Source of the DNA: Desulfobacula toluolica Tol2 | Lineage (GTDB): Bacteria > Desulfobacterota > Desulfobacteria > Desulfobacterales > Desulfobacteraceae | Length of the DNA stretch: 64,000 nt | Assembly (NCBI RefSeq): GCF_000307105.1 | Contig: NC_018645.1 | Location: 407,001-471,000, forward strand | Direction of reading: 5' to 3' | In this document: positions 11,901-53,361 of the stretch, piece by piece | How positions within the stretch are numbered: position 1 is the first letter of the stretch | Layout: every line of letters starts with the position of its first letter | Notes under the pieces: model-generated | What the model was told of the DNA's origin: nothing | Databases searched by the model: none | What the model saw: only the letters and a program-made list of their open reading frames with translations | Program-made: the position numbers and the translations under genes

Positions 11901-12742
11901 GAACCGTTCCGTACCCGGATTTTCCCCTGACCGTGGGCAGGGTGGATATGGTTGAAGACAAGCTTGTGCTTAATGGCCTTCATGTGCCGGTGAACAGGGG
12001 AACACCTGCGCTTTTAGGAGCAATGATCAACACCTTAAAAGTTGTGGGTCAAAAAGATATCACCGGTTTTATTGCCGGTGATATCGGTCTTGGGGACGGC
12101 AGTCGCAATATTTATCAATATATAGTTGAAAATTGTTCCGGCATGGATTTGAAGACCATTGTATTTCATTACCTTCAACCGGATGTGGACTGGCATAATA
12201 AAATTTTATTTGTCCTGAAAGATTTGGCGGTCAAACCAATAATGATCGCCGATGCAGGCTTTATGTATGCAGCCAAGATGAGCGGCCAGGCAGAAGAGTA
12301 TGATCTTTTCACCCCGGATGTGGGAGAACTTGCCTTTCTTGCGGATGAAACCGCTCCCCATCCTTTTTATACCCGGGGATTTATTTTACATGAAGACAAT
12401 AAAATTCCAGATCTTATCAGCCGTGCATACCTGCATAAAAATGCTGCAAAAAATCTGCTGGTAAAAGGAAGCACAGACTTTGTTGCAGATAAAAACGGGA
12501 TTGTTTCTTCCCTGAACAGTCCTGAGGCACAAGCAATGGAAGCAATGGGTGGAACGGGCGATACGCTTACCGGTATTGTTACAGCATTGATTGGAACAGG
12601 AATGAAAATCCCAAAAGCCGCAGCAATAGCTTCAACAGTCAATCGACTGGCCGGGGTTTATGCCGCCCCCACACCTGCCACCCAGGTTCTTGAAATTATA
12701 CAGCAAATCCCGGCAGCCCTGGAAAAAGTATTAAAAGAGTAA
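11885..12742 (+). CDS. NAD(P)H-hydrate dehydratase/ribokinase-like protein
   Basis: A 285-residue protein with a ribokinase-superfamily C-terminus. The anion-hole motif EAMGGTGDTLTGIVTAL near residues 220-235 and NLLVKGSTDFVAD are those of NnrD-type ADP/ATP-dependent NAD(P)H-hydrate dehydratases. Compared with NnrD the N-terminal half is unusual (GTVPYPDFPLTVGRVDMVEDKLVLNG), and the NnrE epimerase domain is absent. Because it overlaps the DUF3343 gene in an operon with yedE and yedF, it may have a selenium-linked role rather than nicotinamide repair; that is inference. Confidence 0.68.
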   Translation: MLAVVGTVPYPDFPLTVGRVDMVEDKLVLNGLHVPVNRGTPALLGAMINTLKVVGQKDITGFIAGDIGLGDGSRNIYQYIVENCSGMDLKTIVFHYLQPDVDWHNKILFVLKDLAVKPIMIADAGFMYAAKMSGQAEEYDLFTPDVGELAFLADETAPHPFYTRGFILHEDNKIPDLISRAYLHKNAAKNLLVKGSTDFVADKNGIVSSLNSPEAQAMEAMGGTGDTLTGIVTALIGTGMKIPKAAAIASTVNRLAGVYAAPTPATQVLEIIQQIPAALEKVLKE

Positions 12743-12743
12743 T

Positions 12744-12983
12744 ATGTCAGGTAAAAAAAAGCAGGTACAGAATCGAATAACTCAGCAAATGACAGTCCTG
12801 GATGTCGTGTCAACCTGCGAAAAAACCCTGCCTGTTTTTAAAGAATATGATGCGATTGCAGGAGAGTGCATCTGCTGCAAATCGCTTTTTGAATCCATTC
12901 ACAGCGTTGCAAAAAAGTATGGCTTTGATCTGCAAAAACTTTTAAACCGCCTTAACGCTGCCGCATCATCCAATCTGTTGTAA
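12744..12983 (+). CDS. DUF1858-like small cysteine-containing protein
   Basis: This 79-residue protein resembles DUF1858: ITQQMTVLDVVSTCEKTLPVFKEY, a Cys cluster ECICCKSLFESI, and a helical tail YGFDLQKLLNRLNA. Such domains are found alone or fused to redox proteins, and their function is unknown. The start directly follows the previous stop, so it is the last gene of the selenium operon. The clustered cysteines suggest metal or chalcogen binding. Confidence 0.65.
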   Translation: MSGKKKQVQNRITQQMTVLDVVSTCEKTLPVFKEYDAIAGECICCKSLFESIHSVAKKYGFDLQKLLNRLNAAASSNLL

Positions 12984-37370: not shown

Positions 37371-39551
37371 TTATATCATATTATTTGCCACAAGTTCACA
37401 GATGTCTTGTGTCTTGACCTCTTCTTCTTTACCCAGCTCTTTCATGCCGTCTTCGAGCATGGTTAAGCAGAACGGGCATGCCACGGCTACATTCGGCACA
37501 TTTTGACCGACAATTTCTTCAGCTCGTTCTATATTGATTCTTTTGCCGATTGTCTCTTCCATCCACATTCGTCCACCACCGGCACCACAGCAAAAACTTT
37601 CTTTGCCATGCCGGTCAAGTTCTGTGAGACCGTCTTTTGATATGGACTGCAGAAGTGATCTGGGTTGGTCGTAAACTTCATTATATCGACCCAGATAGCA
37701 AGGATCATGGTAAGTCAAAGATCCTTCCAAAGATTTGTTCAAAGTGATTCTGCCGGATTTTACAAGTTTCTCAATAAATTCAGTATGGTGAATTACCTCA
37801 TAATTTCCGCCCAGTTGCGGGTAATCATGCTTCAGCGCATTGAGACAATGTGGGCAGGCTGCAATGATTTTTTTAACTTTATATCGGTTCAAGGTTTCAA
37901 TGTTTTCCTGGGCCATCATCTGGTAAAGCATTTCATTTCCCACACGCCGGGCAAAGTCACCTGTGCATTTTTCTTCTACACCCAGGATGGCAAAACTGAT
38001 ACATGCGTTTTGCAGGATTTTGACCAAACTTGCGGATACTTTTTTGGTTCGGTCATCAAAAGAACCGGCACAGCCGACCCAGAGCAGATAGTCTACATTC
38101 GGGTCCTCAGCCATTGTTTTAACACCAAGTCCCTCGGCCCAATCAGCGCGTTTGTCATATCCTATACCCCAGGGATTGCCATTTCGCTCAAGACCCTTAA
38201 GAGCTACATTCAACTCTTTTGGATAGGCTTCCGCCATTAAGGTTTGTCCCTGTCTCATGGCAATGATGCGGGGAACATGTTCAATTGTCACAGGGCAGAC
38301 CTGTTCACATGCCCGGCAGGTAGTGCATGCCCACAGAGTGTCTTCGGAGATCACATCACCGACAAGTGTTTTTTTGCTGTTAAGTTCAGCCATCTGGGCT
38401 TTGATTTCATCTGTTGGTTCTGCGTTTTCATTCTTTTGAAGTGTGACAGGCAGCTTTGTCGCTTTGATAATGGTATTCAAAAAAGAGGTAACCATCACAC
38501 CAAAAGCCGTACCTGTGACGGCTAATTTCCCTCTTTGAATAATGTTGCTTGCATTATCATATAGTTCATGTTTCAGGCTGTCGTTAAAGTCATACAGATT
38601 TAAGGGCTTGTCTGTAATATAAGCTGGGCAGACATCTTTACATCGACCGCACTCGGTACAGGTGTAAAGATCCAGTCCCTGTTTCCAGTTGAGCTGGTGT
38701 ATATGATTGACTCCCAGGGATTCATCTTCCCAGACCGATTCATCTTCCAGATCCAGAAGCTTGATTTTTTCATGGGGATAACCCAGGTTCTTTAAAAATA
38801 CATTGGGAAGAGATGTGATGACATGAAAGTGTTTTCCCAGGGGCAGAAAATTAAGAAATGTTAACTGTGTGATAATGTGCAGCCAGAACATACTGGTCAG
38901 TATAACTTGGTTAGTACCTGCACTTGTCCAGGAGATAAGACTTGCAGCTCCTACGGCAACAGGTGTCCAGAGAAATTCGGAACCGTATTGGGGATTATTT
39001 AAAAAATGCAGATGTTCCGGATTATTATGCAAATTAATCAAATTATATCGGGCACCGTCAATCAAGAGATCGGAAATCATTAAAACCACGATCATGCATA
39101 AAACAAAATACGCTTCCCATGTATTGTGCAATCGTTCAGGTTTAACAATCGCCCTGCGATAGATGGCGTAACCCGCCATCAATAGAACAATGGCTTCCAT
39201 GATATCTTTTAAGGCAATATACAGATATCCCAGTATCGACCCGTCTCCAAAGAAAGGCAGCTGAAATCCTTTTACAAACCCCTCTCCGTAAAGATTCAGG
39301 CTTCGGATCAACAAAACGCAGAATCCCCAGAAGATGAAAGCATGCATGATACCGGCAGCCAACTCTTTTTTTCTTCCCACCAGGCGCTTTTGACCCAGTG
39401 CGATAATCACCATATTTTTAATTCGTTCTTTGATCTGATTGGCTCGATCGGCAGGTTCAAGTGCCATCATCAATCGAATTTTATAATACATTGTGCGACT
39501 GAAAATCGCCAGCCCGACTATGAGCAGTAAAGACATAAAAAGGGGATTCAT
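37371..39551 (-). CDS. EtfAB:menaquinone oxidoreductase (EMO-like membrane Fe-S protein)
   Basis: The 726-residue protein has an N-terminal membrane domain of about six segments (residues 1-260; NarI/HdrE-like), then two 4Fe-4S motifs (CTECGRCKDVCPA, CTTCRACEQVCPV) and two CCG domains (AACPHCLNALKHDYP, SFCCGAGGGRMWM, CPFCLTMLEDGM) that form noncubane 4Fe-4S clusters in heterodisulfide-reductase relatives. This architecture and the etfBA genes just upstream match EMO, the enzyme shown to pass electrons from ETF to menaquinone in related bacteria. It would connect acyl-CoA dehydrogenation in benzoate degradation to the respiratory chain. Confidence 0.85.
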   Translation of the reverse strand: MNPLFMSLLLIVGLAIFSRTMYYKIRLMMALEPADRANQIKERIKNMVIIALGQKRLVGRKKELAAGIMHAFIFWGFCVLLIRSLNLYGEGFVKGFQLPFFGDGSILGYLYIALKDIMEAIVLLMAGYAIYRRAIVKPERLHNTWEAYFVLCMIVVLMISDLLIDGARYNLINLHNNPEHLHFLNNPQYGSEFLWTPVAVGAASLISWTSAGTNQVILTSMFWLHIITQLTFLNFLPLGKHFHVITSLPNVFLKNLGYPHEKIKLLDLEDESVWEDESLGVNHIHQLNWKQGLDLYTCTECGRCKDVCPAYITDKPLNLYDFNDSLKHELYDNASNIIQRGKLAVTGTAFGVMVTSFLNTIIKATKLPVTLQKNENAEPTDEIKAQMAELNSKKTLVGDVISEDTLWACTTCRACEQVCPVTIEHVPRIIAMRQGQTLMAEAYPKELNVALKGLERNGNPWGIGYDKRADWAEGLGVKTMAEDPNVDYLLWVGCAGSFDDRTKKVSASLVKILQNACISFAILGVEEKCTGDFARRVGNEMLYQMMAQENIETLNRYKVKKIIAACPHCLNALKHDYPQLGGNYEVIHHTEFIEKLVKSGRITLNKSLEGSLTYHDPCYLGRYNEVYDQPRSLLQSISKDGLTELDRHGKESFCCGAGGGRMWMEETIGKRINIERAEEIVGQNVPNVAVACPFCLTMLEDGMKELGKEEEVKTQDICELVANNMI

Positions 39552-39590
39552 AGATACCTCATCTATACAATGAATTTGCTGTGAAAGTGA

Positions 39591-39633
39591 AAGGCAATTT
39601 CAAAAAAAGTTTTCATGATTTTGAAATTGCCTT
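39591..39633 (-). other. Perfect 15-bp inverted repeat between etfA and the EMO gene
   Basis: AAGGCAATTTCAAAA (39591-39605) and TTTTGAAATTGCCTT (39619-39633) with a 13-base loop. On the mRNA it forms a strong hairpin in the intercistronic gap. It may protect the upstream mRNA or attenuate EMO expression. Confidence 0.55.
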
Positions 39634-39652
39634 TGAAATTAAAAATTTTGGA

Positions 39653-40612
39653 CTAACCTCTGATTTTTTTAATCTCTTCTCGAAGAACCGGAACCACCTC
39701 AAAAAGATCTCCGACAATACCATAGTCAGCCACGTTGAATATGGGTGCTTCAGGGTCTTTATTAACAGCCAGAATTACTTTTGAGCCGTTCATCCCTGCA
39801 AGATGCTGAATAGCACCTGAAATTCCAAATGCCATATAAAGGGAAGGAGCAACTATTTTACCGGTTTGTCCGACTTGTTTGTTATGTGCCATAAAACCGC
39901 CATCAACCATAGCCCGTGAGGAGCCAAAGCCAGCTGCAAGATCGTTTGCCAGTTCTTTTACAAGATCTACACCGGCTTGATCTTTGGCACCGCGTCCAAC
40001 TGAAATAACGATGTCTGCATCGGCCAGATCAATTTCACCGCTTGCATCAGATATAAGTTCTTTGATAACAGCTTTTAAATCAGCTTCCGGAGCAGCAAGT
40101 TTGACAACGTTTTCAGTTCCTGTGATGCCTTCGGTTGCTTCAAATGCACCTGCTCTGACAACGGCAACCAATTGTTCTGTATTAACTTTAATGCGTTGGA
40201 TAACTTTACCTGCAATAGCAGGCCGAACTACTTCGATTTGTTCTCCGTTCAGTGTTACGTCGGTAATTTCACTTGCACAGGCGGCATCCAGTTGAGCTGC
40301 AACCCTTGGGGCAACGGCTTTACCGCTTTCGGAAAAACCAAACCAGATCTGATTGGCACCAAATTGTTTGGCAGCATCAACAACACAAGCTGCAAAAGGA
40401 CCTGCAGAAAATAGTTCAAGACTGGGATCATCTGCAATGTATTGAGTATCAGATCCTGCATTTGCCAACTCAGAGCTTAGAGATTCTATATTGCTTCCAA
40501 CGGCCACAACCGCGGTTTGTGCACCAATGGCTTTGGCTTTTGATAAAAGTTCGGCTGTGCTGCCTTTTAAAACACCTTGTTTGATGTCTGCGATTACGAG
40601 TACTTTAGCCAT
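39653..40612 (-). CDS. etfA: Electron transfer flavoprotein alpha subunit
   Basis: A 319-residue EtfA with the C-terminal FAD domain: VVSVGRGAKDQAG-like VISVGRGAKDQ, SRAMVDGGFMAHNKQVGQTGKIVAPSLYMAFGISGAIQHLAGM and NKDPEAPIFNVADYGIVGD. The length is standard. With EtfB it collects electrons from acyl-CoA dehydrogenases. Gene order etfB-etfA-EMO. Confidence 0.96.
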   Translation of the reverse strand: MAKVLVIADIKQGVLKGSTAELLSKAKAIGAQTAVVAVGSNIESLSSELANAGSDTQYIADDPSLELFSAGPFAACVVDAAKQFGANQIWFGFSESGKAVAPRVAAQLDAACASEITDVTLNGEQIEVVRPAIAGKVIQRIKVNTEQLVAVVRAGAFEATEGITGTENVVKLAAPEADLKAVIKELISDASGEIDLADADIVISVGRGAKDQAGVDLVKELANDLAAGFGSSRAMVDGGFMAHNKQVGQTGKIVAPSLYMAFGISGAIQHLAGMNGSKVILAVNKDPEAPIFNVADYGIVGDLFEVVPVLREEIKKIRG

Positions 40613-40681
40613 AATATTGTTTTCCTTCTATGAATCCGGTTAATGTCCAATGATAATAGTAAATTTTTATTATTAAATTCC

Positions 40682-41464
40682 TTATAACACCTTTGCTTCA
40701 TTGGCAAGAAGACCAACGACTTTGGCCGTGATTTCAGCCGCATCGCCTTCAAATTTTTGACCGGCCTGGCGTGTTTCCGATGTCATAAATTCAACAATTT
40801 CCGATTTAGGCGCACCACCTCCGACTTCATCAAAAGAAGTTCCCAGTGCAGCCAGATCCATGACTTGGATTTTCTTTTTCTTTGCCATCATGATGCCGCG
40901 CATTGCCGGCAGCCGAGGTTCATTAATACTATCACTGACCGTTACAACGGCAGGTAACTCAAATTCAATAATTTCAGTTCCGGCATCACCTAAGCGGGAT
41001 GCTTTAATGTGCTGATCGTCTATAACTTCCAAGGCAACTACATTACTGACACAGGGAATGCCCAGATATTCAGCCAATATGATTCCTGTCTGTCCGCTAT
41101 CTGTATCCTGGGCTTGCTTGCCCGTGATGACCAGATCATAATTTTCTTTTTCATAAACCTTTTGTAATACCCTGGCCGAGATTGATGAATCAATTTTTTC
41201 CAATGCAGGATCATCAATATGGATTGCGTTCTCAATTCCCATGGCATAGCATTTGCGGATGACATCGGTGTTGTCTCCGCTACCAACGCTTACTAAGGTT
41301 GTTTCTGCATTGTTATTTTCTTTGAGCTGGACTGCGGCTTCCACTGCGTTTTCATCCCAGGCGTTTATTACATATTGCAGCCCGTCTTCAACAATGGCAC
41401 CGTCCTTCACATGGATGTTCAATTCAACATCGACTACTTTTTTTACTGTTGTGAGAATTTTCAA
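40682..41464 (-). CDS. etfB: Electron transfer flavoprotein beta subunit
   Basis: A 260-residue EtfB: MKILTTVKKVVDVELNI, NAWDENAVEAAVQLKE, the recognition-loop region VITGKQAQDTDSGQTGIILAEYLGIPCVSNV, and PRLPAMRGIMMAKKKKIQV. It carries AMP and docks acyl-CoA dehydrogenases. A GGAGGA site precedes the ATG. Together with etfA it probably serves glutaryl-CoA or another dehydrogenase in the benzoyl-CoA pathway. Confidence 0.96.
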   Translation of the reverse strand: MKILTTVKKVVDVELNIHVKDGAIVEDGLQYVINAWDENAVEAAVQLKENNNAETTLVSVGSGDNTDVIRKCYAMGIENAIHIDDPALEKIDSSISARVLQKVYEKENYDLVITGKQAQDTDSGQTGIILAEYLGIPCVSNVVALEVIDDQHIKASRLGDAGTEIIEFELPAVVTVSDSINEPRLPAMRGIMMAKKKKIQVMDLAALGTSFDEVGGGAPKSEIVEFMTSETRQAGQKFEGDAAEITAKVVGLLANEAKVL

Positions 41465-41530: not shown

Positions 41531-42346
41531 TCATTTTTTTATGATGCGGTCCTCACCGCATAGTACTAATAGTTTAGACCCTTCAAACGCACAGGCGAGC
41601 GTCATATTAAGACTTTGGCCCATTTGGACGGCAAGGGCGGTAGGCCTTGATTTGCTGATTATCATCGGCAGATGAGCCCGGGCAGCTTTTTGAACCAGTT
41701 CATAACTGATCCTGGAAGATAAAACCAAGAGACTTGCCTTTGACAGTGTCCTGTCCATAAAAGCTTTTCCAATGGCTTTGTCCAGAGCATTGTGCCGACC
41801 CACATCCTCGGCAAACGTGAGTATTTCAAGCTGATCATCAAACAATAATGCGGCATGAGATCCCCGTGTTCTAGGATAATAGTTCTGTTTTTTTGAAAGC
41901 ATTTTAACGCAGTTAAAAATACCTTCAATATCTACTTTAAATCCGTCTTCAGCCGGGATTAATACCTGGTGAAGATCCTTGATCAGTTGTTTGCCGCAAA
42001 TACCGCAACTGGTCTGGCTGATATAGCTTTTCCTTTTAAGAAGGTCAGGGATTTTTTTTTTTCTTTCAGGGGTAAGCCAGATATCAACAATATTTGGATC
42101 AAGATTTATATCATGTCCAATAGTCTTAAAATCATCCGGGGAATCTACAATGCCTTCCCCAAGGCATATCCCTGCTGCATGAAACACCTCTTCTCCCGGC
42201 GTTCTCATTACTACTGAATACGGTTTGTCTTCAACGCGAATCATAAGAGGTTCTTCTCCAATCAATTCAATAGAATCAATTTGACAAACCCCTTTTTTAT
42301 TACAGTGAAGCGCTTGGTAAAACGTTGTGTTCTTGCCTGCACTCAA
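41531..42346 (-). CDS. fdhD: FdhD-family sulfurtransferase
   Basis: A 271-residue FdhD with the Cys loop SQTSCGICGKQLIK and the C-terminal nucleotide-binding-like TFAEDVGRHNALDKAIGKAF, SSRISYELVQKAARAHLPMIIS. FdhD sulfurates the Mo/W-bis-pyranopterin cofactor of formate dehydrogenases. No formate dehydrogenase is in the window; its place between bamI and etfB suggests a role in maturing the tungsten cofactor of BamB. This is inference. Confidence 0.88.
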   Translation of the reverse strand: MSAGKNTTFYQALHCNKKGVCQIDSIELIGEEPLMIRVEDKPYSVVMRTPGEEVFHAAGICLGEGIVDSPDDFKTIGHDINLDPNIVDIWLTPERKKKIPDLLKRKSYISQTSCGICGKQLIKDLHQVLIPAEDGFKVDIEGIFNCVKMLSKKQNYYPRTRGSHAALLFDDQLEILTFAEDVGRHNALDKAIGKAFMDRTLSKASLLVLSSRISYELVQKAARAHLPMIISKSRPTALAVQMGQSLNMTLACAFEGSKLLVLCGEDRIIKK

Positions 42347-42442: not shown

Positions 42443-42497
42443 GTATCTTGCTTCCCTGTAAAAATTTTTTTGCCGGTCAATTCCGTTTTTTTGTATC

Positions 42498-43100
42498 CTA
42501 TTTTTTTGGTTCAGTTTCAGGAAAAGAAAGAGATTGTGCCAGCACAAAAGCAGCCTGGAGATAGGAAGTCGGGCATAAAGGAAAGCATTCTTTGCAATCA
42601 TTACACTCTACCGCCGCTATTTCAGGTATAAAGCTGATCTCTTTGTTTATTCCCCTGTCAACAAACCCAAGGGCATGTTTTTGTGCCACTTCCGCGCAGT
42701 ATCTGACACAAAGACCGCAGTGAACACAAAAAGAAGGATCTTTTTCATACCGGTCTGCAACAGCACCATACTCTTTTGCCATTTTCATCAGTTCCGGAGA
42801 ATCCGGAGCATGAGCCATCAGCAATTCTATGATGGTTTTTCTGATTCTGTCGACCTTTTCAGACCTGGTCCTGACAATTATATTTTCTTCCACCGGATAA
42901 ACGCAGGAAACAACGAGCTTTGTCCAGCCGCGAACTTCTACTTCCACGATGCAGACGCGGCATCCCCCGAATGGTTCCAATTTTTCATGGTGACAGAGAG
43001 TGGGGATATATATCCCTTCATTTTGAGCTGCCTCCAGAACGGTCATCCCTTCCGTTGCCTTTACTTGTTTTCCATCAATTTCAAATTGGATTTCACTCAT
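42498..43100 (-). CDS. bamI: BamI: Fe-S subunit of class II benzoyl-CoA reductase complex
   Basis: A 200-residue protein like the N-terminus of NuoG/HydA: a 2Fe-2S domain (PTLCHHEKLEPFGGCRVCIVEVE, with a further Cys in VVSCVYPV) followed by two 4Fe-4S motifs (CVHCGLCVRYCAE and CNDCKECFPLCP). It would carry electrons between BamH and BamE/F. It overlaps bamH by 4 bases (ATGA). Last gene of bamB-I. Confidence 0.88.
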   Translation of the reverse strand: MSEIQFEIDGKQVKATEGMTVLEAAQNEGIYIPTLCHHEKLEPFGGCRVCIVEVEVRGWTKLVVSCVYPVEENIIVRTRSEKVDRIRKTIIELLMAHAPDSPELMKMAKEYGAVADRYEKDPSFCVHCGLCVRYCAEVAQKHALGFVDRGINKEISFIPEIAAVECNDCKECFPLCPTSYLQAAFVLAQSLSFPETEPKK

Positions 43101-45025
43101 TTTACTTTGCTCTTTTTAATTATCATTCTGTTTTCTTCAGGAACAGGAGCCGGAACAGGTTCGCCGGAAATCTTGGTCACTGCGCCAAAACGGGAGGGAC
43201 AGACTTCAAAGCAGGTTCCGCACTTTGTACATTTCTCCTGGTCAATGATATGGATCATTTTTTTCGCACTGTCAATGGCGTCTGCAGGGCATTTTTTTGC
43301 ACAGATCATACATGCCTTGCATTTGTCAGGATCGATATAAAATGCGATCAGCTCTTTACAGGCCAGTGCCGGGCATTTTTTCTCCCGGATATGTGCTTCA
43401 TATTCATCCCTGAAATATTTCAAAGTACTCAGGAATGGATTGGGAGCGCTTTTGCCCAGGGCACACAGCGAGGCTTCAACAGCAGTTTCGGCCAGCTCTT
43501 CCAGCAGTTCAATGTCGCCTTCTTTGCCCAGGCCTTTTGTGATGTTGGTCAAAATGCGGTGCATCTGGCGCAATCCTTCACGGCAGGGAACACATTTGCC
43601 ACACGATTCATCTGTAAGAAACTCAATAAAGTATCTGGCAACATCCACCATACAGGTATCTTCGTCCAGAACGATCATGCCGCCTGAACCCATCATGGAG
43701 CCTGCTTTGGTCAACTCGTCAAACCCAACTTGAAGGTCCAGCAGGTGTTCCGGGATACATCCGCCGGAAGGTCCGCCGGTCTGAACGGCTTTGAACTTCT
43801 TGCCGTTGGGTATGCCGCCGCCAATTTTATAGATGATTTCATTCAGGGTCATGCCCATGGGGACTTCAACCAGACCCGTATTGGTGATCTTGCCAACCAG
43901 GGAGAAAATCTTGGTTCCCTTGCTGCTTTCGGTTCCAACCGAAGAAAACCAGTCAGCGCCTTTGTTGATGATCAAAGGCACGTTGGCCCAGGTCTCAACA
44001 TTGTTCAGCACAGACGGTCTTTCCCAAAGTCCCTTGACATTGGATCTAACATATTTGGGTCTGGGCTCTCCTGCTTTTCCTTCCAGAGAGGTCATCAAAG
44101 CTGTTGACTCGCCGCAGACAAATGCACCTGCACCCTGGTGGACAATGACCTTGAAGTCAAAGCCGGACCCCAGGATATTTTCCCCGAGCAGGCCGTATTC
44201 TTCAGCCTGTTTGATGGCAAGGTTTATATTTTCAACTGCCAGCGGGTATTCCTGGCGAACATAAAAATAGCCTTCGTGGGATGCCACAGCATATCCGCCA
44301 ATGATCAATCCCTCTAAGATTGAATGGGGATTGCCCTCAAGAAGCGCCCTGTCCATAAATGCTCCGGGGTCACCCTCATCAGCATTAACGATCACATATT
44401 TGATCGGTTCGGGTGCATTACGCGATCCTTCCCATTTTCTGCCGGCTGGAAAACCTGCACCACCACGGCCTCTGAGGTTGGATTTTTTGACCTCTTCGAG
44501 AACATCTATATCCGTCATCTCACCAAGGGCTTTGGCAAGTGCGGAGTAACCGCCAAGAGAGATGTAATCTTCAATACTCTTGGAGTCAATCTTGATGTTA
44601 TTGCACAGAACCGTTCTTTCCTGGCTTCTGTAAAATGAGATATCTGATTCTTTGACTGCTTTTTCTCCGGTTGCAGGATCTTCAAAAAGCAGGCGGTCGA
44701 TAACCTTTTTATTCTTTATGGTCTGTTCAATAATTTCGGGAACATCTTCAACTTTAACCTGAAGATAGCATATCTCTTCAGGATAGATGACCACAACAGG
44801 TCCGCGTTCACAGAATCCCGGACATCCGGTTCCCTTGGTGCTGACTGTTGCTGCCAAACCCTGGTTTTCAATTTCCTGATGAAACGCTTCAATCACTTCA
44901 TCTGCGCCTGAGGCAACACAACCGGCACCGGCACATATTGAAATGCAGGGATTGTTCGGGTCTCTTCTGGATAATATTTCTTGCCTGAAGCTTTCTAATT
45001 CTCCGGGCGTATTTAACCGCGCCAT
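43097..45025 (-). CDS. bamH: BamH: NuoF-like NADH/flavin subunit
   Basis: A 642-residue NuoF-type subunit: N-terminal thioredoxin-like 2Fe-2S domain (CAGAGCVASGADEV), FMN/NADH domain (LRGRGGAGFPAGRKWEGSR, QGAGAFVCGESTALMTSLEG), a 4Fe-4S site ESCGKCVPCREG, and two extra C-terminal ferredoxin clusters (CKACMICAKKCPADAI, CTKCGTCFEVCPS). It probably exchanges electrons with NAD(H) for flavin-based bifurcation that drives benzoyl-CoA reduction. Ten bases downstream of bamG. Confidence 0.92.
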   Translation of the reverse strand: MARLNTPGELESFRQEILSRRDPNNPCISICAGAGCVASGADEVIEAFHQEIENQGLAATVSTKGTGCPGFCERGPVVVIYPEEICYLQVKVEDVPEIIEQTIKNKKVIDRLLFEDPATGEKAVKESDISFYRSQERTVLCNNIKIDSKSIEDYISLGGYSALAKALGEMTDIDVLEEVKKSNLRGRGGAGFPAGRKWEGSRNAPEPIKYVIVNADEGDPGAFMDRALLEGNPHSILEGLIIGGYAVASHEGYFYVRQEYPLAVENINLAIKQAEEYGLLGENILGSGFDFKVIVHQGAGAFVCGESTALMTSLEGKAGEPRPKYVRSNVKGLWERPSVLNNVETWANVPLIINKGADWFSSVGTESSKGTKIFSLVGKITNTGLVEVPMGMTLNEIIYKIGGGIPNGKKFKAVQTGGPSGGCIPEHLLDLQVGFDELTKAGSMMGSGGMIVLDEDTCMVDVARYFIEFLTDESCGKCVPCREGLRQMHRILTNITKGLGKEGDIELLEELAETAVEASLCALGKSAPNPFLSTLKYFRDEYEAHIREKKCPALACKELIAFYIDPDKCKACMICAKKCPADAIDSAKKMIHIIDQEKCTKCGTCFEVCPSRFGAVTKISGEPVPAPVPEENRMIIKKSKVK

Positions 45026-45034
45026 AATTTTCCC

Positions 45035-45487
45035 CTACTCATAAGTTTTTAAGGCTTCTGCTGTTTTGACCGGTGACATCTTCCCATGGACTTTACCACC
45101 AACTTCCATCACAGGGCCCAGTGCGCAGCAGCCGAGGCAGTTAACAGTTTCCAGGCTGAATTTCAGATCAAGATCTGTTTCGCCGGGTTTAATACCGATT
45201 GCTTCTTCCACCGTATCAAGAATACGGGTGGCTCCGCGGACATGACAGGCGGTTCCCACACAGATGTGGACTTTATGACGCCCTTTGGGAACCAGGCTGA
45301 ATGCTTTATAAAAGGTGGCAATATGCTGGATACGGGTCAAAGGAACGTCTAATTTTTCACTGACCCTCCCCAAGGCCTCCTTGGGAAGCCAATTGTTTTC
45401 ACTTTGAATATCAAGCATTATTTGAAGCAAACTGCTTACTTCACCATTATGTTTGTCAATAATTTGATCTACTTTCTCAATTTCCAT
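45035..45487 (-). CDS. bamG: BamG: NuoE-like 2Fe-2S subunit
   Basis: A 150-residue thioredoxin-fold ferredoxin of the NuoE/HndA type. The four cluster cysteines are in CVGTACHVRGA and CLGCCALGPV, and the N-terminal helical region (EVSSLLQIMLDIQSENNWLPKEAL) is present. It partners BamH. Located between bamF and bamH in the conserved bam order. Confidence 0.92.
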   Translation of the reverse strand: MEIEKVDQIIDKHNGEVSSLLQIMLDIQSENNWLPKEALGRVSEKLDVPLTRIQHIATFYKAFSLVPKGRHKVHICVGTACHVRGATRILDTVEEAIGIKPGETDLDLKFSLETVNCLGCCALGPVMEVGGKVHGKMSPVKTAEALKTYE

Positions 45488-45541
45488 AAGACGTTATTCC
45501 TAATAGTTTTCTTTACCAAGATCCTTTGGTCAAACCATTTA

Positions 45542-46312
45542 TCACTGGACTCGCTGATAACATTTGCTGTCTGTATCATATTTAACCATACCGTGCCGGG
45601 ATGAACTGATCATGTGCCGGGATACATCAGACGGGTTAAGACCTAATTTCTCAGCAATATCACCGGTTGACAGAGGATTGTCTTTCAGGAGCAACATAAT
45701 CTGGCTGACAGCCAGTTTATCTGAAAAGATATCACCAAACAATGCGTTCATTTCACTGCTTTCGAAAAACTCGGTATAGGTTTGTTTTGATTTAAACGGA
45801 ACCCTGAGCCTTTCTCTTTCTGCCAGCCTCATGTAGGGAACAAGTTTCCTGGCGGCTTCAAGCTTGAACTTTACCGTATCAGCGTCCATGCCTTCGCTTT
45901 TGCCAAGTGGCCCCAACTCTTTTATCTGTCTTGCAAAATCATCGGTATATTCTGCTAAAAGATTACCGTCCGCACCTGACATAAATTCGGTTCTCAGCCG
46001 GTTCGGGTTTAATCCTATGTGTTCCAATATCTTCCTGGCAATGTGTGTATTGGCAAGGGCATCGTAATTGCCATGGGTGACATAATTGCATTCGTCCAAT
46101 TTACATCCGCCAATAAACACACCGTCTTGTCCGTTTGCAAAGGCTCTGAGTATAAATTCCAGGTCGACTCTACCGGAACACATAACTCTAATAAGCCTCA
46201 TTTCATTTGCATATTGCAGTCTGGAAACTCCAGCCAGGTCAGCAGCACCATACGCTCACCAATGGCATACAAAACCTAATATTCTTGGTTTAAATTCAAG
46301 ACCTGTACTCAT
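45542..46312 (-). CDS. bamF: BamF: MvhD-like selenoprotein (Sec at codon 19)
   Basis: The full reading frame starts at ATG 46312 (AGGAGG upstream) and reads MSTGLEFKPRILGFVCHW, then an in-frame TGA (46256-46258), then AYGAADLAGVSRLQYANE and onward without a break, giving 256 residues. MvhD/FrhD proteins have a Cys at the TGA position, so Sec insertion preserves the 2Fe-2S/redox ligand. A hairpin follows the TGA. A conventional caller would start at 46201 and lose 37 residues including the essential motif. The rest contains GGCKLDECNYVTHGNYDAL. C-terminal residues (NPLSTGDIAEKLGLNPSDVSRHM) form a winged-helix-like extension. It links BamE to BamG/H. Confidence 0.9.
46221..46258 (-). promoter_or_regulatory. 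UGA-Sec codon and candidate SECIS hairpin of bamF
   Basis: The TGA is at 46256-46258. Downstream, CTGGA-GTT-TCCAG (46233-46221) makes a perfect 5-bp stem with a GTT tip, 22 bases after the TGA. A small apical loop starting GU at this distance fits bacterial SECIS elements. Confidence 0.7.
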
Positions 46313-46374
46313 TGTTTCCTCCTTTATTCATAGCCCCTTTACAAATATTGCGGGCTTTATTCATGGGATAACGC

Positions 46375-49300
46375 CTATACATTTTCAAGCACCGCATCCA
46401 TCTGTTCTATGATATCTTCTTTTGTAATTGCCGCATCAATCTGATTAAAAAGCGCATCATTGGTAAAATGCTTTAAAACAATGGCATTTGTCGGACACTT
46501 TGCATTACACAAACCATCACCTTTACACAAAATCGGATTTACCCAGGCTTTTTTGCCTTTGGGTGTATCACGGAACTCAATGGCATCATATGTACACGCT
46601 GTAATACATGCACCGCAGGACACACAATCATATTCATTTACTTTGGCAACAGAACCTGATGCAACAACCGTGTCTCTTGACAAAAGTGTCAGAACACGAC
46701 CGGCCGCACCGTACGCCTGGTTAATGGTTTCAGGAATATGCTTGGGATAGTGAGCCGTACCGCAAAGGAAAACGCCATCCGTGGCAAACTCAACCGGTTT
46801 TAATTTAACATGGGCTTCTTTGAAAAACTCATCCGGGCTCAAGGTTACCTTGAAGTGACCGGCTATTTCTTCTGTTGATTCAGTTGGAATAACAGCGGCA
46901 GCCAGAGAAAGAACATCAGCATCCAGTTCAAGGCGCTGACCTAAAATAGGATCAGGCACGGTTACACGGATAATGTCTTTTCCGCCTTCTTTGGCGGTTT
47001 GAACAACTGGTTTGTCTTCCGGTGTATAACGGATGAAGCGCACATCATTTTCCGAGGCTTCCCTATAGGCGTCTTCTCTGAATCCATAGGTTCTCATATC
47101 CCTGAACAGGATATAAATGCGCATGTCCGGATTTTTCTCTTTGAGTTTTAATGCGTTTTTAACGGCATGGCCGCAACATACTCTGGAGCAATAATTTCTG
47201 TCTTCGTTTCTGCAGCCCACACACTGGATCATCACCAGGCTCTCGGCATTGACAACTGCCGGGTTTGCTTTGGCAATCTCTTCTCCAAGTTCAAGGTGGG
47301 TGAAAACAGCATCGTTTTCTCCGTACAGGTATTCAGTGGGCTTGTAAACATCCGCACCAATGGCAAGAACCGAGGCTCCATGTTTGATCACTTTGCTTCT
47401 GCCTTCGGTTTCCAAGGTTGTGGTAAAATTGCCCAGGTAACCTGAAACATCTTTGATAACGGCTTCGTGGGATACATGAATCAAGGGGTTTTTATAAACC
47501 TGCTGTATCACATTATCCAGGTAGGTTTGAACATCCAGCCCTTCAAGAGTTGAATAAATTCTTCGCGCCATACCGCCCAGGTCTTTGCTTTTTTCCACCA
47601 GGTGAACTTCATGTCCCTGGGCTGCAATGGACAATGCACAGGTCATGCCTGCAATACCGCCACCCACAACCAGGGCTGCCTTGTTAACCGGCAGATCAAA
47701 TTCCTTGAGGGGTTCTAATTGAGAGGCCCGTGCCACTGACATCCTGACGATATCCTGTGCTTTTTGTGTGGCTTCCTCTTTTTGCTTGGTATGAACCCAG
47801 GAGCAATGTTCCCGGATATTGGCCATGTCAAGGTAATACTGGTTCAACCCTGCTTCCCGGAGAGTGTCTCTGAACAACGGCTCCAGAGTTCTGGGAGAGC
47901 ATGCTGCAATCACAACACGGTTAAGGCCTTTTTCTTTTGCCAGGTCTGTTATCTCTTTGGCAGAGTTGGTTGCACATGAAAAGATCTGTTCTTTTGCGTA
48001 TACAACATTGGGCAGGGTCAAGGCATACTCAACCGTGGACGGAACATTGACAACACTTGAAATATTTGCACCGCAATGACATACAAAAACGCCGATTCTC
48101 GGCTCTTCACCGGACACATCCCGTTCAACCGGATATATTCTCTCTTTGGCCAGGTTTCCTCGCCGGTAGTCAAGCATTTCTCCTATCTGAGAACCTGCTC
48201 CGCTGGCGGTAAAAACCGATTCAGGAATATCTGTCGGGCCCTGGAAAGCGCCGCTGACAAAAATCCCTGGTCTGCTGGTTTTGATTGGATTGGAAGAGTC
48301 AGATTCACAAAATCCGTGTGAATTAAGATCAATTCCAAACATGTCGGACAACTCTTTATACGCTGCCGGCGGATTCAATCCAACAGACAATACCACCATG
48401 TCAAACTCTTCTTCTTTTACGCCTTCATCGGTGGTTGCATATCTGACGGCTACATTCTTGGTTTCCGGGTTTTCCCTTGTCACAGAAGCATAACTTCTTA
48501 TGAATTCAACTCCGTCAAGCTGTTCGGCTCTCTGAAAGTATCGTTCAAAATCCTTGCCAAAAGAACGAATGTCATTATGAAATATGGTACACTCGGCATC
48601 ATCATAATGATGCTTTGTCAAAATAACCTGTTTTTGCGTATAGGTGCAGCATACACCCGAGCAATAGCTGTTATCTCCTTCGGTGACCCGTCTGGAACCA
48701 ACACATTGAATCCAGGCAATCTTTTTGGGGTGTTTTTTGTCCGAGGCCCGCAATACCTGACCTTCGTAGGGACCTGTGGAAGACAGCAGACGTTCATAGT
48801 CCATACTTGTGACCACGTTCTGCATCTTTCTATACCCGTATTCATCTTTTACACTGGGATCAAACGGGGTAATACCTGAAGACAAAATAATCGCCCCGAC
48901 ATTAATATCCGTCTTTTTGGGCGTTTGATTAAAATCTATTGCGTCTGCCTGGCAAACACCACGGCAGATATCACATTTTTCTTCTTTGAGAAAAAGACAG
49001 CTGTCATCAATATATGCAACAAGTGGAATAGCCTGGGAAAAATATACATGAACAGCTTTATTCTGGGAAATTCCCTGATTAAACTGATCCGGATATTCTT
49101 TTGGGCAGTATTCCATACAAGTTGTACAGCCTGTGCATTTTTCCTCAATAATATATCGGGGTCTGGTTTTCAGGCTGACCTGAAAGTCACCTTTTTCCCC
49201 TTCCACTTTTTCAACTTCAGTAAATGTCAAAACCTCTATATTTGGATGCCGGCCGACCTCGACCAGTTTAGGAGAGAGAATTCACATCGAGCAGTCATTG

Positions 49301-49512
49301 GTAGGAAATGTTTTGTCAAGCTGGGCCATATGGCCGCCAATGCTCGGCGATTTTTCCACCAGGTAAACCTTAAACCCCGCAGTGGCAAGATCAAGAGAGG
49401 CCTGTATGCCACTGACCCCTCCGCCAACAACCATCACGTCTCCAAAGTTTTTATCTCCAAGACTGTCGGAAAATAATTGCATATTCTCCATTGGCAATAC
49501 GTCGTTTCCCAC
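46375..49512 (-). CDS. bamE: BamE: HdrA-like flavin/Fe-S selenoprotein (Sec at codon 77)
   Basis: The complete frame runs from GTG 49512 (GAGGAG upstream) to 46375, 1,045 residues, with one in-frame TGA at 49282-49284. Around it the protein reads [24 protein letters not shown]; HdrA proteins have Cys here as a cluster ligand. Domains: FAD-binding [18 protein letters not shown] (about 27-50), two ferredoxin clusters ([21 protein letters not shown]), a second HdrA-like module ([30 protein letters not shown]), and C-terminal clusters [15 protein letters not shown] and [12 protein letters not shown]. It is the presumed bifurcating flavin subunit of the benzoyl-CoA reductase complex. Standard calling splits it into two ORFs. 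Confidence 0.92.
49249..49284 (-). promoter_or_regulatory. UGA-Sec codon and candidate SECIS hairpin of bamE
   Basis: The TGA is at 49282-49284. Fifteen bases downstream CTGGTC (49266-49261) pairs with GGCCGG (49254-49249), allowing two G-U pairs, around the loop GAGGTC. The loop contains GGTC, as in the Escherichia coli fdhF SECIS loop. Confidence 0.72.
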
Positions 49513-49616
49513 TTTATTTTCTCCTCATCATATTTTCTTAAGTCCTGCCCGGCTAAACCGGACAGGACCGCTTACTTTCAATCAACTTGTGTGTTCAGCG
49601 CCTTAAAGCATCTTAA

Positions 49617-50768
49617 CTAAAGCATCTCACTGATAATTTCCGTGATGTCTTTAATTTCCAGAACATCTTCATATTCCAGATTCAGACGGCTTTCTTCAAA
49701 GTTGGTGATGCAGTACGGACAGGATGTTGCCAGAACCTGGGCTCCAACCGCATTGGCCTGATCCAGCCTGATATCGGAGAACCTTTCTTCTTTTGGCGTG
49801 TCCATCCAGATTCTGCCGCCGCCACCGCCGCAGCAAAGACTGTTTTTGCCATGGTTTTCCATCTCAACCAGTTCCAGTCCCGGAACTTTTCTTAAAACCT
49901 CGCGGGGTTCATCATATACATCATTGTGGCGTCCTAAGTAACACGGATCATGATAAGTTATTTTCTTTGGAAATTCACCTTTAAGTTCGAGACGTCCGTC
50001 ATTGATCAGTTCCAGTAGATACTGGTTGATGTGAAGAACCTCAAAATTTACCATAAATTCAGGATATTCGTTTTTAAAGGTATGAAAGCAATGAGGGGAA
50101 GATACAATGACTTTTTTCACCCCATTGTCGATAAACGTTTTAATATTTTCCTTGGCCAGGCGTTTGAATACATCTTCACTGCCTGTCTTTCTGATGCTTT
50201 CTCCACAGCAGTTTTCCTGTGAACCCAGGATACCGAAATCCACACCTGCTTTTTGAAGGATCTTGGCTGTGGCCGTGGCCACTTTTTTCATTCGGGGGTC
50301 ATAACTCAAATAGCAGCCGACAAAATACAACGCTTCCATACCCTCTGTATAGGGCTTTACAGAAAGGCCGTTCGCCCATTCAGAGCGTTTTTTACGGTCT
50401 CCCTGCAAGGGGTTGCCTTCGGAAATCAGACTGGCTCGGGCAGTACGGGCAGACCGGACAGAAGTTGGAAAAACTTCATATTCGGTTGCCACTCTTCTCA
50501 GGGCCACGCTGACATCTATCTGTTTGACGCCTCTGGGGCACTGTGACGGGCACATTCCGCAGGTTGTACAACGCCATATATCTTCGCCTTCTATTTCAGT
50601 TAAACCAAAAGCCGCCTCTCGAATGAGCTTGCGCATGCTAAAGGGTCGAACCTTATTCCACGGGCAAACCGAATCACACAATCCGCACTGAAAGCATAAC
50701 TTGAAGACGTCTCCACCGGCCTCTTTTATCTCATCTATTACTTCTATGAAGGGGGCTATAGTTTCCAC
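49617..50768 (-). CDS. bamD: BamD: HdrC/HdrB-like Fe-S protein
   Basis: A 383-residue fusion of an HdrC-like part with two 4Fe-4S motifs (CFQCGLCDSVCPW, CTTCGMCPSQCPRG) and an HdrB-like part with two CCG domains (VGCYLSYDPRM, NCCGESIRKTG, SSPHCFHTF; DPCYLGRHNDVY, LCCGGGGGRIWMD, SCPYCITNFEES). It would transfer electrons from BamE to BamBC. It resembles the soluble half of the EMO-like protein at 37.4 kb. Confidence 0.9.
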   Translation of the reverse strand: METIAPFIEVIDEIKEAGGDVFKLCFQCGLCDSVCPWNKVRPFSMRKLIREAAFGLTEIEGEDIWRCTTCGMCPSQCPRGVKQIDVSVALRRVATEYEVFPTSVRSARTARASLISEGNPLQGDRKKRSEWANGLSVKPYTEGMEALYFVGCYLSYDPRMKKVATATAKILQKAGVDFGILGSQENCCGESIRKTGSEDVFKRLAKENIKTFIDNGVKKVIVSSPHCFHTFKNEYPEFMVNFEVLHINQYLLELINDGRLELKGEFPKKITYHDPCYLGRHNDVYDEPREVLRKVPGLELVEMENHGKNSLCCGGGGGRIWMDTPKEERFSDIRLDQANAVGAQVLATSCPYCITNFEESRLNLEYEDVLEIKDITEIISEML

Positions 50769-50803
50769 TGTCTTTATTAATCCTCTTCTTTTGCCTTATT
50801 GAT

Positions 50804-51337
50804 TTAGTCTTTCTGTGACAGTCGGGCAACGGCATCCATGATTTTATCCAAGCCATATTTGTTTGCCAATGATTCCAACCCGATCTCCATATCCTCCTGC
50901 TCTTCCTGCTTTTCGACTTCTTCTTCTCTTTCTTCGATCGTCAGCGCATCAACCAGGCACCACTTGACACACAAGGGTTCTTCTTCGCCTTCGCACATAT
51001 CGCATTTAAGAGGAAGACCGGAATCAGGTTCTTTAAATTCATCCCTGGATGGGCAGGATGCTCTACAGAAGGAACACTCATCGTATTCTTTGCCGTCAAT
51101 TGTATATTTGTCTCTGCCGGCACATTCAGCAACAGTATATTCTCCTGCATAAACCGGAACATAAATATCTCTTAGCGGTTCACGAATAATTCTGATACGG
51201 GATCTGGCAGGGTTATTGCTGCTATATTTAGGTGAAGCGTGAAAAGCCGAGCAGATGACTTCACAAGCTCTGCAACCATTGCATTTATCTACATCAATTT
51301 TTATTGTTTTAATTATTTTCTTCTCTTTATGACCCAA
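50804..51337 (-). CDS. bamC: BamC: ferredoxin-like electron-transfer subunit
   Basis: A 177-residue Fe-S protein with a cluster motif CNGCRACEVICSAFHA near residue 18, and further cysteines (ECSFCRASCPS, LKCDMCEGEEEPLCVKWC) for about three 4Fe-4S clusters, followed by an acidic, Glu-rich helix (EEREEEVEKQEEQEDME). BamC is the small subunit bound to BamB in the purified enzyme. Seventeen bases after the bamB stop. Confidence 0.9.
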   Translation of the reverse strand: MGHKEKKIIKTIKIDVDKCNGCRACEVICSAFHASPKYSSNNPARSRIRIIREPLRDIYVPVYAGEYTVAECAGRDKYTIDGKEYDECSFCRASCPSRDEFKEPDSGLPLKCDMCEGEEEPLCVKWCLVDALTIEEREEEVEKQEEQEDMEIGLESLANKYGLDKIMDAVARLSQKD

Positions 51338-51354: not shown

Positions 51355-53361
51355 CTAATTATTCTCTTTTTCAACTGATGACTCTTCTAAAGGAGCGTCT
51401 TCAGCATCCGTTAAGATTCCCCGCTCTATAAATTCCTCAGCCACATAGTCCAAACCCATTTTATTCAAGAATTCTTTAGTCGGAATACCGTCATTGTTCC
51501 ACCCTTTGAGTTTGTAATAACTGTCCAAGAGTTCCTTTTCAAGTTCGGGAAATCTTTTCTTCCAGTGATCTTCAGGCGGTTTTTCATCTTTTCTTCTCAT
51601 GCCTCGTCTTATATTAAAGGCTCTGACTAAGGTTCGATATCTTGTGGCGGCTGCTGTCAATTTTTCCTCATCCATTTCAATTCCGGCACCGGCTGAAATA
51701 AATTTAGGATAATTGTGGATGTGATACGGCGGTTTTAAAGGAAAGGATGACAGACCTGCACATTGGCCCAAAGCATCATCAATGTAGTGCATTCTTTCTT
51801 GCCAGTCAACAATATCACAGGTCATTTCAACTGTTGGATAGAATGGAAGTGAGTTTTCTCCGCGCAATTCCCAGTCGATAAAATATTGCTTGAATTTTTC
51901 ATGGGGAACCTGAATCCAGTCCTCACAAAATTTTTCTCTGTGTTCTTTTTTGGGAAAAGGCGCTTGAGGGAACTGGCCTTCAATCTGAGTAATGTTCATT
52001 TTTTCGCCGGTACAATACATAAGAAAATAGATCGGATTGAGCATGGACAGTTTGAGCGGCAGTTGTTCGTGTTTTTTGATATTATTGTGTGCATATTCTT
52101 CCGCACCATTGCCGATCTCTTTGGCTGCCCAATAAGTACCATTGGCCAAAATATCTCCGATTCCTTCACGATTGACAATTTTGTCAAGCAGATAATAAAA
52201 TTTGCCCTCATTGTCTTCCGGAAGTCCTGGAAAGTCATCCTCACTTAAAATACCGTTTTCCAGAAGTTCAAGACCAAAGGCCATGACCTGTGGAGTTGAA
52301 AATCCGTCCAATCCATACTCTGTAGCTTTTTGAGCGATTCGTAAACCAAAATCCAAATCTGAAAAAGCACCCATTGTATAAGTTAACTTTGTGAAGCATT
52401 TCATCATGTAGGTCGGAAGTCCCGGCAAAGAAAGTGTTGCACCGCATTTCATGGGGCAATTAAAGCAGGAAATCAGCCTTGTCCTGGCATTTTCCAGGGT
52501 TTCCGTCCAGCTTGACTCGACTTCTTCAGTCCAGAATCCTTTTCGACGGGTACGGGAATTTCCCCACATGAAATTTTCAGTGTGCCATTTTTCATCATGA
52601 ACTTTCATTTCCTGGGGAGATCCAAGTCCGGCAAGGATTGGCATAACTCCAGGGATCGGGTTTCCGTCCCGGTGTTTGATGTACTCCAGAACGCCGTTAC
52701 AAAGTTCCATAAATTCAGCAGGCTGGGAAAGGTTGATATCCTTTGTTCCCCGGACAACAATGGCTTTTACGCCTTTGTCACCCATGACAGCCCCTATGCC
52801 ACCTCGACTTGCACTGGATCTGCCCTGCTCGACAGAAGCATAATACACCCTGTTTTCACCGGCAAGCCCGATAGCGGCCACCTGAGCTTTGGGCTCGTTG
52901 AGTTCTTTTTTAATGATTTCAGCTGTTTCAATAGCACCTTTTCCGTGCAGATGAGATGCATCCCGTATTTCCACCTTGTCATTGTTGATCCACAAATAGA
53001 CCAGGTCTGGAGATTTGCCGCGAAGGATTACTTTATCATAACCGGCATATTTTAATTCCGGTGCCCAAAATCCTCCCATCATTGAAAATGCCATTAATTT
53101 GGTTTGAGGCGAAATGGTCGTAAGAATGGTACGATTACAACCGGTCGCAGGTGTCCCGCACAAAAGGCCGGCACCAAAAATTAATAAATTTTCAGGAGAA
53201 AAAGGTTCAACCTCAGGGGGAACCCTATCCCATAATATCTTGGCGTTAGTACCTAATCCCCCAAGATAAAGCTCTGTATCTCTTGGGTCGGTTGCGACTT
53301 TTTCAATATTTCCTCGGGTTAGATCAACCTCTAAATTAAACCCTGTCTCTGCATACCTCAT
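51355..53361 (-). CDS. bamB: BamB: tungsten-containing active-site subunit of class II benzoyl-CoA reductase
   Basis: A 668-residue member of the aldehyde:ferredoxin oxidoreductase (AOR) family. Cluster ligands are visible as CFNCPMKCG near residue 305 with the distal Cys in DDALGQCAGLSSF; pterin-binding segments include GRSSASRGGIGAVMGDKGVKAIVVRG. BamB reduces the aromatic ring of benzoyl-CoA to cyclohexa-1,5-diene-1-carbonyl-CoA without ATP. Assignment to BamB rather than a generic AOR rests on the whole bamBCDEFGHI order downstream. The gene has its own promoter (53488-53516). Confidence 0.94.
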   Translation of the reverse strand: MRYAETGFNLEVDLTRGNIEKVATDPRDTELYLGGLGTNAKILWDRVPPEVEPFSPENLLIFGAGLLCGTPATGCNRTILTTISPQTKLMAFSMMGGFWAPELKYAGYDKVILRGKSPDLVYLWINNDKVEIRDASHLHGKGAIETAEIIKKELNEPKAQVAAIGLAGENRVYYASVEQGRSSASRGGIGAVMGDKGVKAIVVRGTKDINLSQPAEFMELCNGVLEYIKHRDGNPIPGVMPILAGLGSPQEMKVHDEKWHTENFMWGNSRTRRKGFWTEEVESSWTETLENARTRLISCFNCPMKCGATLSLPGLPTYMMKCFTKLTYTMGAFSDLDFGLRIAQKATEYGLDGFSTPQVMAFGLELLENGILSEDDFPGLPEDNEGKFYYLLDKIVNREGIGDILANGTYWAAKEIGNGAEEYAHNNIKKHEQLPLKLSMLNPIYFLMYCTGEKMNITQIEGQFPQAPFPKKEHREKFCEDWIQVPHEKFKQYFIDWELRGENSLPFYPTVEMTCDIVDWQERMHYIDDALGQCAGLSSFPLKPPYHIHNYPKFISAGAGIEMDEEKLTAAATRYRTLVRAFNIRRGMRRKDEKPPEDHWKKRFPELEKELLDSYYKLKGWNNDGIPTKEFLNKMGLDYVAEEFIERGILTDAEDAPLEESSVEKENN

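Follow-up and report, generated by a model that had tools for sequence, protein, structure and literature searches.

The window analyzed here, a 64,000-nucleotide stretch of the Desulfobacula toluolica Tol2 genome (NC_018645.1, positions 407,001 to 471,000), carries on its minus strand a contiguous set of genes in the order bamBCDEFGHI. The Bam letters were assigned from the gene order and gene types of Geobacter, as given in the sections of PMC1924859 drawn on here. On this basis bamB (51355..53361, placed by both order and type) is followed by bamC (50804..51337), bamD (49617..50768), bamE (46375..49512), bamF (45542..46312), bamG (45035..45487), bamH (43097..45025), and bamI (42498..43100), with bamC, bamD, and the letters G, H, and I resting on gene order. 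Directly downstream of bamI is a gene that by eye is fdhD-like (41531-42346), and further along, after the bam cluster, are EtfBA-like genes and a gene for a membrane FeS oxidoreductase-like protein, likewise named by eye (37371-41464). The EtfBA-like and oxidoreductase-like genes also follow one bam cluster of G131, a genome from another genus of the family. The fdhD-like gene, which may function with a formate dehydrogenase or in connection with the BamB cofactor, lies beside bamI in one G131 cluster and had matches in 23 of the 80 loci described below (best of 273).

The bamE frame extends from a GTG at 49512 to a TAG at 46375 and comprises 1045 residues; its only in-frame TGA, codon 77, lies at 49282-49284, and downstream of it the frame stays open for 968 codons until the TAG. 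An earlier sequence-only reading of this DNA had described a single TGA in an HdrA-like frame followed by 968 open codons, and its coordinates were correct. It had also predicted that gene callers would fragment bamE, and the mechanical ORF list indeed splits the gene at the TGA. A second in-frame TGA occurs in bamF, encoding an MvhD-like protein of 256 aa, at 46256-46258 within the motif VCHWU, and there the mechanical caller starts the gene late, at ATG 46201. Such genes are therefore easily mis-annotated.

Pfam searches found FAD and Fer4 domains in BamE, and three separate stretches matched HdrA from solved complexes: residues 27-394 matched the FAD/inserted-ferredoxin core, residues 469-627 the N-terminus, and residues 852-1027 the C-terminal part. 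BamE therefore consists of two HdrA units joined in a single chain. The first half has the FAD domain, the inserted ferredoxin domain, and residue 77, but no N-domain; the second half has the N-terminal Fe-S domain, an FAD domain, and the C-terminal ferredoxin, but no Cys at the place matching Cys197 of the methanogen protein. The FAD domains, N-domain Fe-S cysteines, and inserted and C-terminal ferredoxins together place BamE in the HdrA family, and its gene, flanked by bamD and bamF within a bamBCDEFGHI cluster, sits where the bamE of a class II benzoyl-CoA reductase is expected.

Named genomes were scanned for relatives of bamE; 273 were confirmed, and the best 80 by similarity were kept. 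Nearest among the named relatives were those of Desulfobacula, with Desulfotignum close; the 80 include no record from Geobacter, whose BamE is the biochemically studied one. The codon aligned to codon 77 was TGA in 77 of these best 80 of 273 and a Cys codon in 2 (L099 and L107), while the remaining locus (L067), on a contig beginning inside the gene, had no site at this column. Four of the 79 readable sites fell outside the first pattern and were read from sequence context. Since the relatives were chosen by similarity, Cys forms are under-drawn in this sample. Within the fetched DNA of the 80 loci (best of 273), matches to bamD, bamF, and bamH were found in 70, 76, and 63, respectively; many of these loci end inside the bam cluster, and the counts refer to matches in fetched DNA rather than to proven flanking genes.

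The D. toluolica genome itself has both forms. Seventeen HdrA-type loci were matched, and of the 11 sites readable, 6 had TGA (L009, L010, L013, L014, L021, and L024) and 5 had Cys (L011, L012, L015, L023, and L025). In this genome, the two Cys genes nearest to bamE share 70% and 67% identity with it. Cys also occupies the column of residue 77 in the three PDB alignments examined (5odc_A, 8rvu, and 8rvv), out of six matches. The expectation of the sequence-only reading that HdrA homologues carry Cys at the TGA was thus borne out both by these structures and by the 5 of 11 same-genome sites, and an in-frame UGA where homologues carry Cys is what is looked for in a bacterial selenoprotein. Further HdrA paralogues of the Sec type were noted in the genome at 1362776-1371000 (L044) and 2824525-2827599 (L013).

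Fifteen bases past the bamE TGA is a SECIS-like hairpin (49249..49266, minus strand) with a 6-bp stem, CTGGTC/GGCCGG, and the loop GAGGTC, at the distance from the TGA that the earlier reading had given. The GGTC of this loop presumably resembles the loop of E. coli fdhF. The hairpin was compared across 116 unique 60-nt sites, 93 of them Sec and 23 Cys, taken from the window and all fetched loci and limited to those fitting one protein pattern. All six stem pairs were formed in 92 of 93 Sec sites versus 2 of 23 Cys sites, and the loop GGTC was present in 87 of 93 versus 0 of 23; these counts agree with a bacterial SECIS element, in which a hairpin just past the UGA exposes a G in the apical loop. 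The lone Sec site that does not form the main stem, pairing at 3 of 6 positions, belongs to a more distant HdrA paralogue (L044/L021) and was kept in the counts. In L021, a possible hairpin with the loop GGTC was seen at a different position.

Third-position entropy over codons 6-11 after the Sec codon was 0.00-0.29 bit in Sec sites versus 0.76-1.77 in Cys sites. Outside the hairpin, the Sec set gave 0.64-1.65 for codons 1-5, 0.69 for codon 12, and 0.91-1.61 for codons 13-19. The variation at Cys sites partly reflects amino-acid change, but the contrast persists where the residue is the same, at Glu (23 of 23 Cys sites; 0.76 Cys versus 0.09 Sec) and at Arg (21 of 23 Cys sites; 1.48 Cys versus 0.29 Sec). 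Wobble positions that are near-frozen under the hairpin in Sec sites and free in Cys sites are, on such comparative grounds, the mark of a working SECIS element. Among 20,000 synonymous recodings of the bamE stretch, 34 folded equally well and 50 combined the stem with a GGTC loop. Plain dinucleotide shuffling of the 56-nt bamE stretch gave no folding-energy signal (z = -0.09), and folding energy alone would therefore not reveal the hairpin. Common to the relatives and rare among synonymous recodings, the TGA and hairpin of bamE exceed what chance would be expected to produce.

The earlier reading had called for a search of the genome for selA, selB, selC, and selD, and had named absence of selB or selC as an argument against Sec. 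The single contig of 5,197,905 bases was found to encode SelA (605.6 bits), SelB (358.7 bits), SelD (score 360), and tRNA-Sec (score 76.5), each once and above its family cut-off, so that all four components expected for Sec insertion are present. The selD gene (2134729-2135649) itself holds an in-frame TGA. Across 389 genomes of the class, a strong BamE/HdrA match was found in 371 and selB above cut-off in 323. A TGA-bearing match of at least 63% identity was read by hand, among the matches listed, in 102 genomes, a rough count that takes at most two matches per genome and registers a TGA in the match, not necessarily at codon 77. SelB reached cut-off level in 93 of them, with the E-value threshold inferred from the listed scores. 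The nine genomes with no full-score selB (G052, G087, G091, G159, G236, G261, G302, G325, and G377) are all drafts, of 50 to 1270 contigs, and none of the TGA homologues found belonged to a genome demonstrably devoid of Sec machinery.

Sec insertion at codon 77 is thus supported by the Sec/Cys swap at the exact column, the wobble-constrained SECIS element, the machinery, and the TGA in relatives. We regard it as very probable, on the strength of these sequence comparisons, that bamE is one intact gene whose UGA at codon 77 is read as Sec; SelB would bring Sec-tRNA to this codon because of the hairpin 15 bases downstream. A sequencing error or recent pseudogene, as a lone nonsense codon within an otherwise open frame might suggest, is ruled out by the same TGA in a second bamE copy at 5.16 Mb and in 77 of 80 loci of other genomes. 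The UGA might instead be a true stop after 76 residues, the remainder being made by internal re-initiation, for example from TTG 49230 to give 951 aa. The mechanical ORF list yields precisely this 951-aa frame, but such a stop would cut the first FAD domain of BamE, and it sits poorly with the Sec machinery of the genome and with wobble positions that are frozen downstream in TGA forms only. In addition, the 77 non-Cys relatives among the 79 with the site (best 80 of 273) all have TGA, with no TAA or TAG. We consider termination at codon 77 highly improbable.

A FastTree phylogeny was built from 119 rows, 98 Sec and 21 Cys, with the trait column masked and long branches flagged by the program; the 119 remained of 133 after near-copies, loci repeating longer ones, and rows with <700 aa after the site were left out. 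The 96 Sec BamE rows formed one starred group, with the 13 Cys BamE rows outside it. The Sec/Cys label needed 3 changes on the tree versus a mean of 19.7 in shuffles, in a sample drawn by similarity to the query in which Cys forms are under-drawn. The Sec group takes in Desulfosporosinus and Desulfotomaculum, as well as bins labelled Chloroflexi, Acidobacteria, and Bathyarchaeota, although bin labels may be wrong. The 13 Cys-type BamE rows and the two Cys paralogues in the D. toluolica genome show that the fold can do without selenium.

The fetched loci gave 85 unique bamF sites of the Sec type and 11 of the Cys type. Third-position entropy for codons 8-12, in the conserved stretch CTGGAGTTTCCAG, was 0.25-0.58 bit in Sec sites versus 0.44-1.68 in Cys sites. 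The folding energy of the bamF stretch in the window did not differ significantly from that of shuffles (z -1.00).

The bamD-I stretch of the window (42445-50809) recurs at about 5.154-5.162 Mb (L040/L041) with 99.0-99.6% nucleotide identity, whereas BamB and BamC encoded at ~5.15 Mb are 64% and 71% identical to the window proteins. The second bamE copy, at 5.16 Mb, carries the same TGA. Overlapping matches suggest that 60 bp are tandemly repeated at the 3' end of this copy (L040, about 12697-12816), whose open frame is listed as 1069 aa versus 1049. In G131, the bamD-I regions of two clusters (L173/L174) are 99.8% identical across 8,175 bases, and their bamBC are 68-74% identical; L175 and L176 gave no match in the same comparison. 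The second bamB of D. toluolica and that of G131 are orthologues (85.5% versus 63.7%), and the two catalytic bamBC pairs therefore appear to be older than the genera. Within each genome, concerted evolution appears to have homogenized the electron-input module, including its two Sec codons.

The same genome has two Sec copies of bamE and, at 4.88 and 3.39 Mb, two Cys copies. This coexistence could indicate a selenium-responsive set in which the Cys clusters replace the Sec ones under selenium scarcity, and replacement of this kind is suggested for selenoproteins of D. autotrophicum in the part of PMC2702500 drawn on here. However, the 4.88-Mb cluster retains a Sec bamF. It encodes two BamB/BamC pairs with ~52-56% identity to those of the window, and the 20 kb fetched around the Cys bamE at 3.39 Mb yielded no bamB. 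Together these features make the Cys clusters look like different complexes rather than backups, and we think a selenium-responsive set distinctly unlikely. With Cys BamE and Sec BamF in the 4.88-Mb cluster and Cys in both proteins in the 3.39-Mb cluster, the two positions evidently change independently.

Residue 77 of BamE aligns gap-free with residue 197 of 5odc_A. As set out in the passages of PMC9012536 consulted, the N-terminal cluster of an HdrA receives a trans ligand, Cys197, from its partner HdrA, tandem or fused HdrAs show complementary Cys197 and N-domain, and in the proposed HdrA heterodimers the flow toward ferredoxin runs through the N-terminal cluster. Sec77 stands in place of the methanogen HdrA Cys197, and it most likely supplies a ligand to the N-domain cluster. 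The half of BamE with Sec77 lacks an N-domain and the half with the N-domain lacks Cys197, so the ligation is probably across the halves. The proposed partners are Cys 478, 480, 513, and 538 of the second-half N-domain (codons 478-538; 47899..48081, minus strand), aligned to the N-domain of HdrA. All four were found in every Sec row (96 of 96) and every Cys-type row (20 of 20), with three HdrA paralogue sites of this genome (L042, L044, and L045) left out; being equally conserved in Cys-type rows, these cysteines are by themselves no evidence for Sec. In principle, the four could hold a cluster alone, without residue 77.

We weighed whether Sec is inserted as a free selenol with no cluster, for example in redox chemistry with Cys74 as a CxxU motif. 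All 96 Sec rows have Cys74, HdrA is listed as CxxU in the portion of PMC13188914 drawn on here, and four invariant Cys are already available within the N-domain. Set against this, the position equals that of Cys197, a cluster ligand in HdrA, and the absence of a matching Cys from the N-domain half fits a shared cluster. A free selenol at residue 77 is, in our view, unlikely, and we favor as reasonably probable, from the alignment and domain layout, that Sec77 is the inter-half ligand of the N-domain cluster. In this arrangement, Sec77 would ligate the [4Fe-4S] cluster held by the N-domain of the second unit, and the selenolate-ligated cluster would sit on the low-potential electron branch toward BamBC and benzoyl-CoA. 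The sequence-only reading had put Sec at a residue central to flavin or cluster chemistry; the match to Cys197 would retain the cluster part and speak against a flavin-site residue.

The Hdr/Mvh complex HdrA (5odc) has the same domains as BamE, with its residue 197 aligned to Sec77, but has one HdrA unit per chain, is dimeric, and carries Cys, whereas BamE has two units and Sec. The fused HdrAs of ANME archaea and Moorella, according to the relevant part of PMC9012536, have two units with complementary Cys197 and N-domain, as BamE does; in the ANME fusions, however, the N-domain half comes first, and in BamE the half with Cys197/Sec does. Sec in HdrA of sulfate reducers, which the earlier reading had given as known, is reported in the portion of PMC2702500 drawn on here. 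The HdrA/HdrL of Desulfobacterium autotrophicum (PMC2702500) and methanogen HdrA (PMC13188914) have, in the sections used, Sec in a CxxU motif like BamE, with adjoining MvhD genes, several of which also have Sec; unlike BamE, they lie outside any benzoyl-CoA reductase.

Sec in BamE itself is already in print for an orthologue, as the material consulted from PMC5109826 names five Sec genes with SECIS elements, each as a locus-tag pair, and one of them encodes BamE of Desulfococcus multivorans (dmul_C24500/10). That protein, like the one described here, belongs to a class II benzoyl-CoA reductase and has a UGA with a SECIS element; in the same material it is only listed, and the SECIS constraint, the Cys paralogues, and the ligand logic come from the present analysis. 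We found no assignment of the BamE Sec as a cluster ligand in the open-licence literature searched. The additions made here are strong sequence evidence for how the UGA is read and a testable idea of the role of selenium.

In the passages of PMC12054007 and PMC12096430 drawn on here, class II benzoyl-CoA reductases are believed to bifurcate electrons, and according to the latter the enzyme must reach about -0.62 V, which bifurcation is believed to drive. We tentatively suggest, as a possibility somewhat short of an even chance, that a selenolate [4Fe-4S] cluster shared between the halves of BamE lies on the low-potential branch feeding the tungsten site and is itself fed by BamF, whose Sec is at a likely Fe-S ligand position. 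Selenium might in this way tune bifurcation potentials reaching ~-0.62 V, with bamD-I kept near-identical by concerted evolution while BamBC diverged. A Sec conserved throughout a large BamE clade at a position predicted to ligate a cluster, alongside Cys counterparts within one genome, would offer a direct test of the effect of selenium on a bifurcating Fe-S chain.
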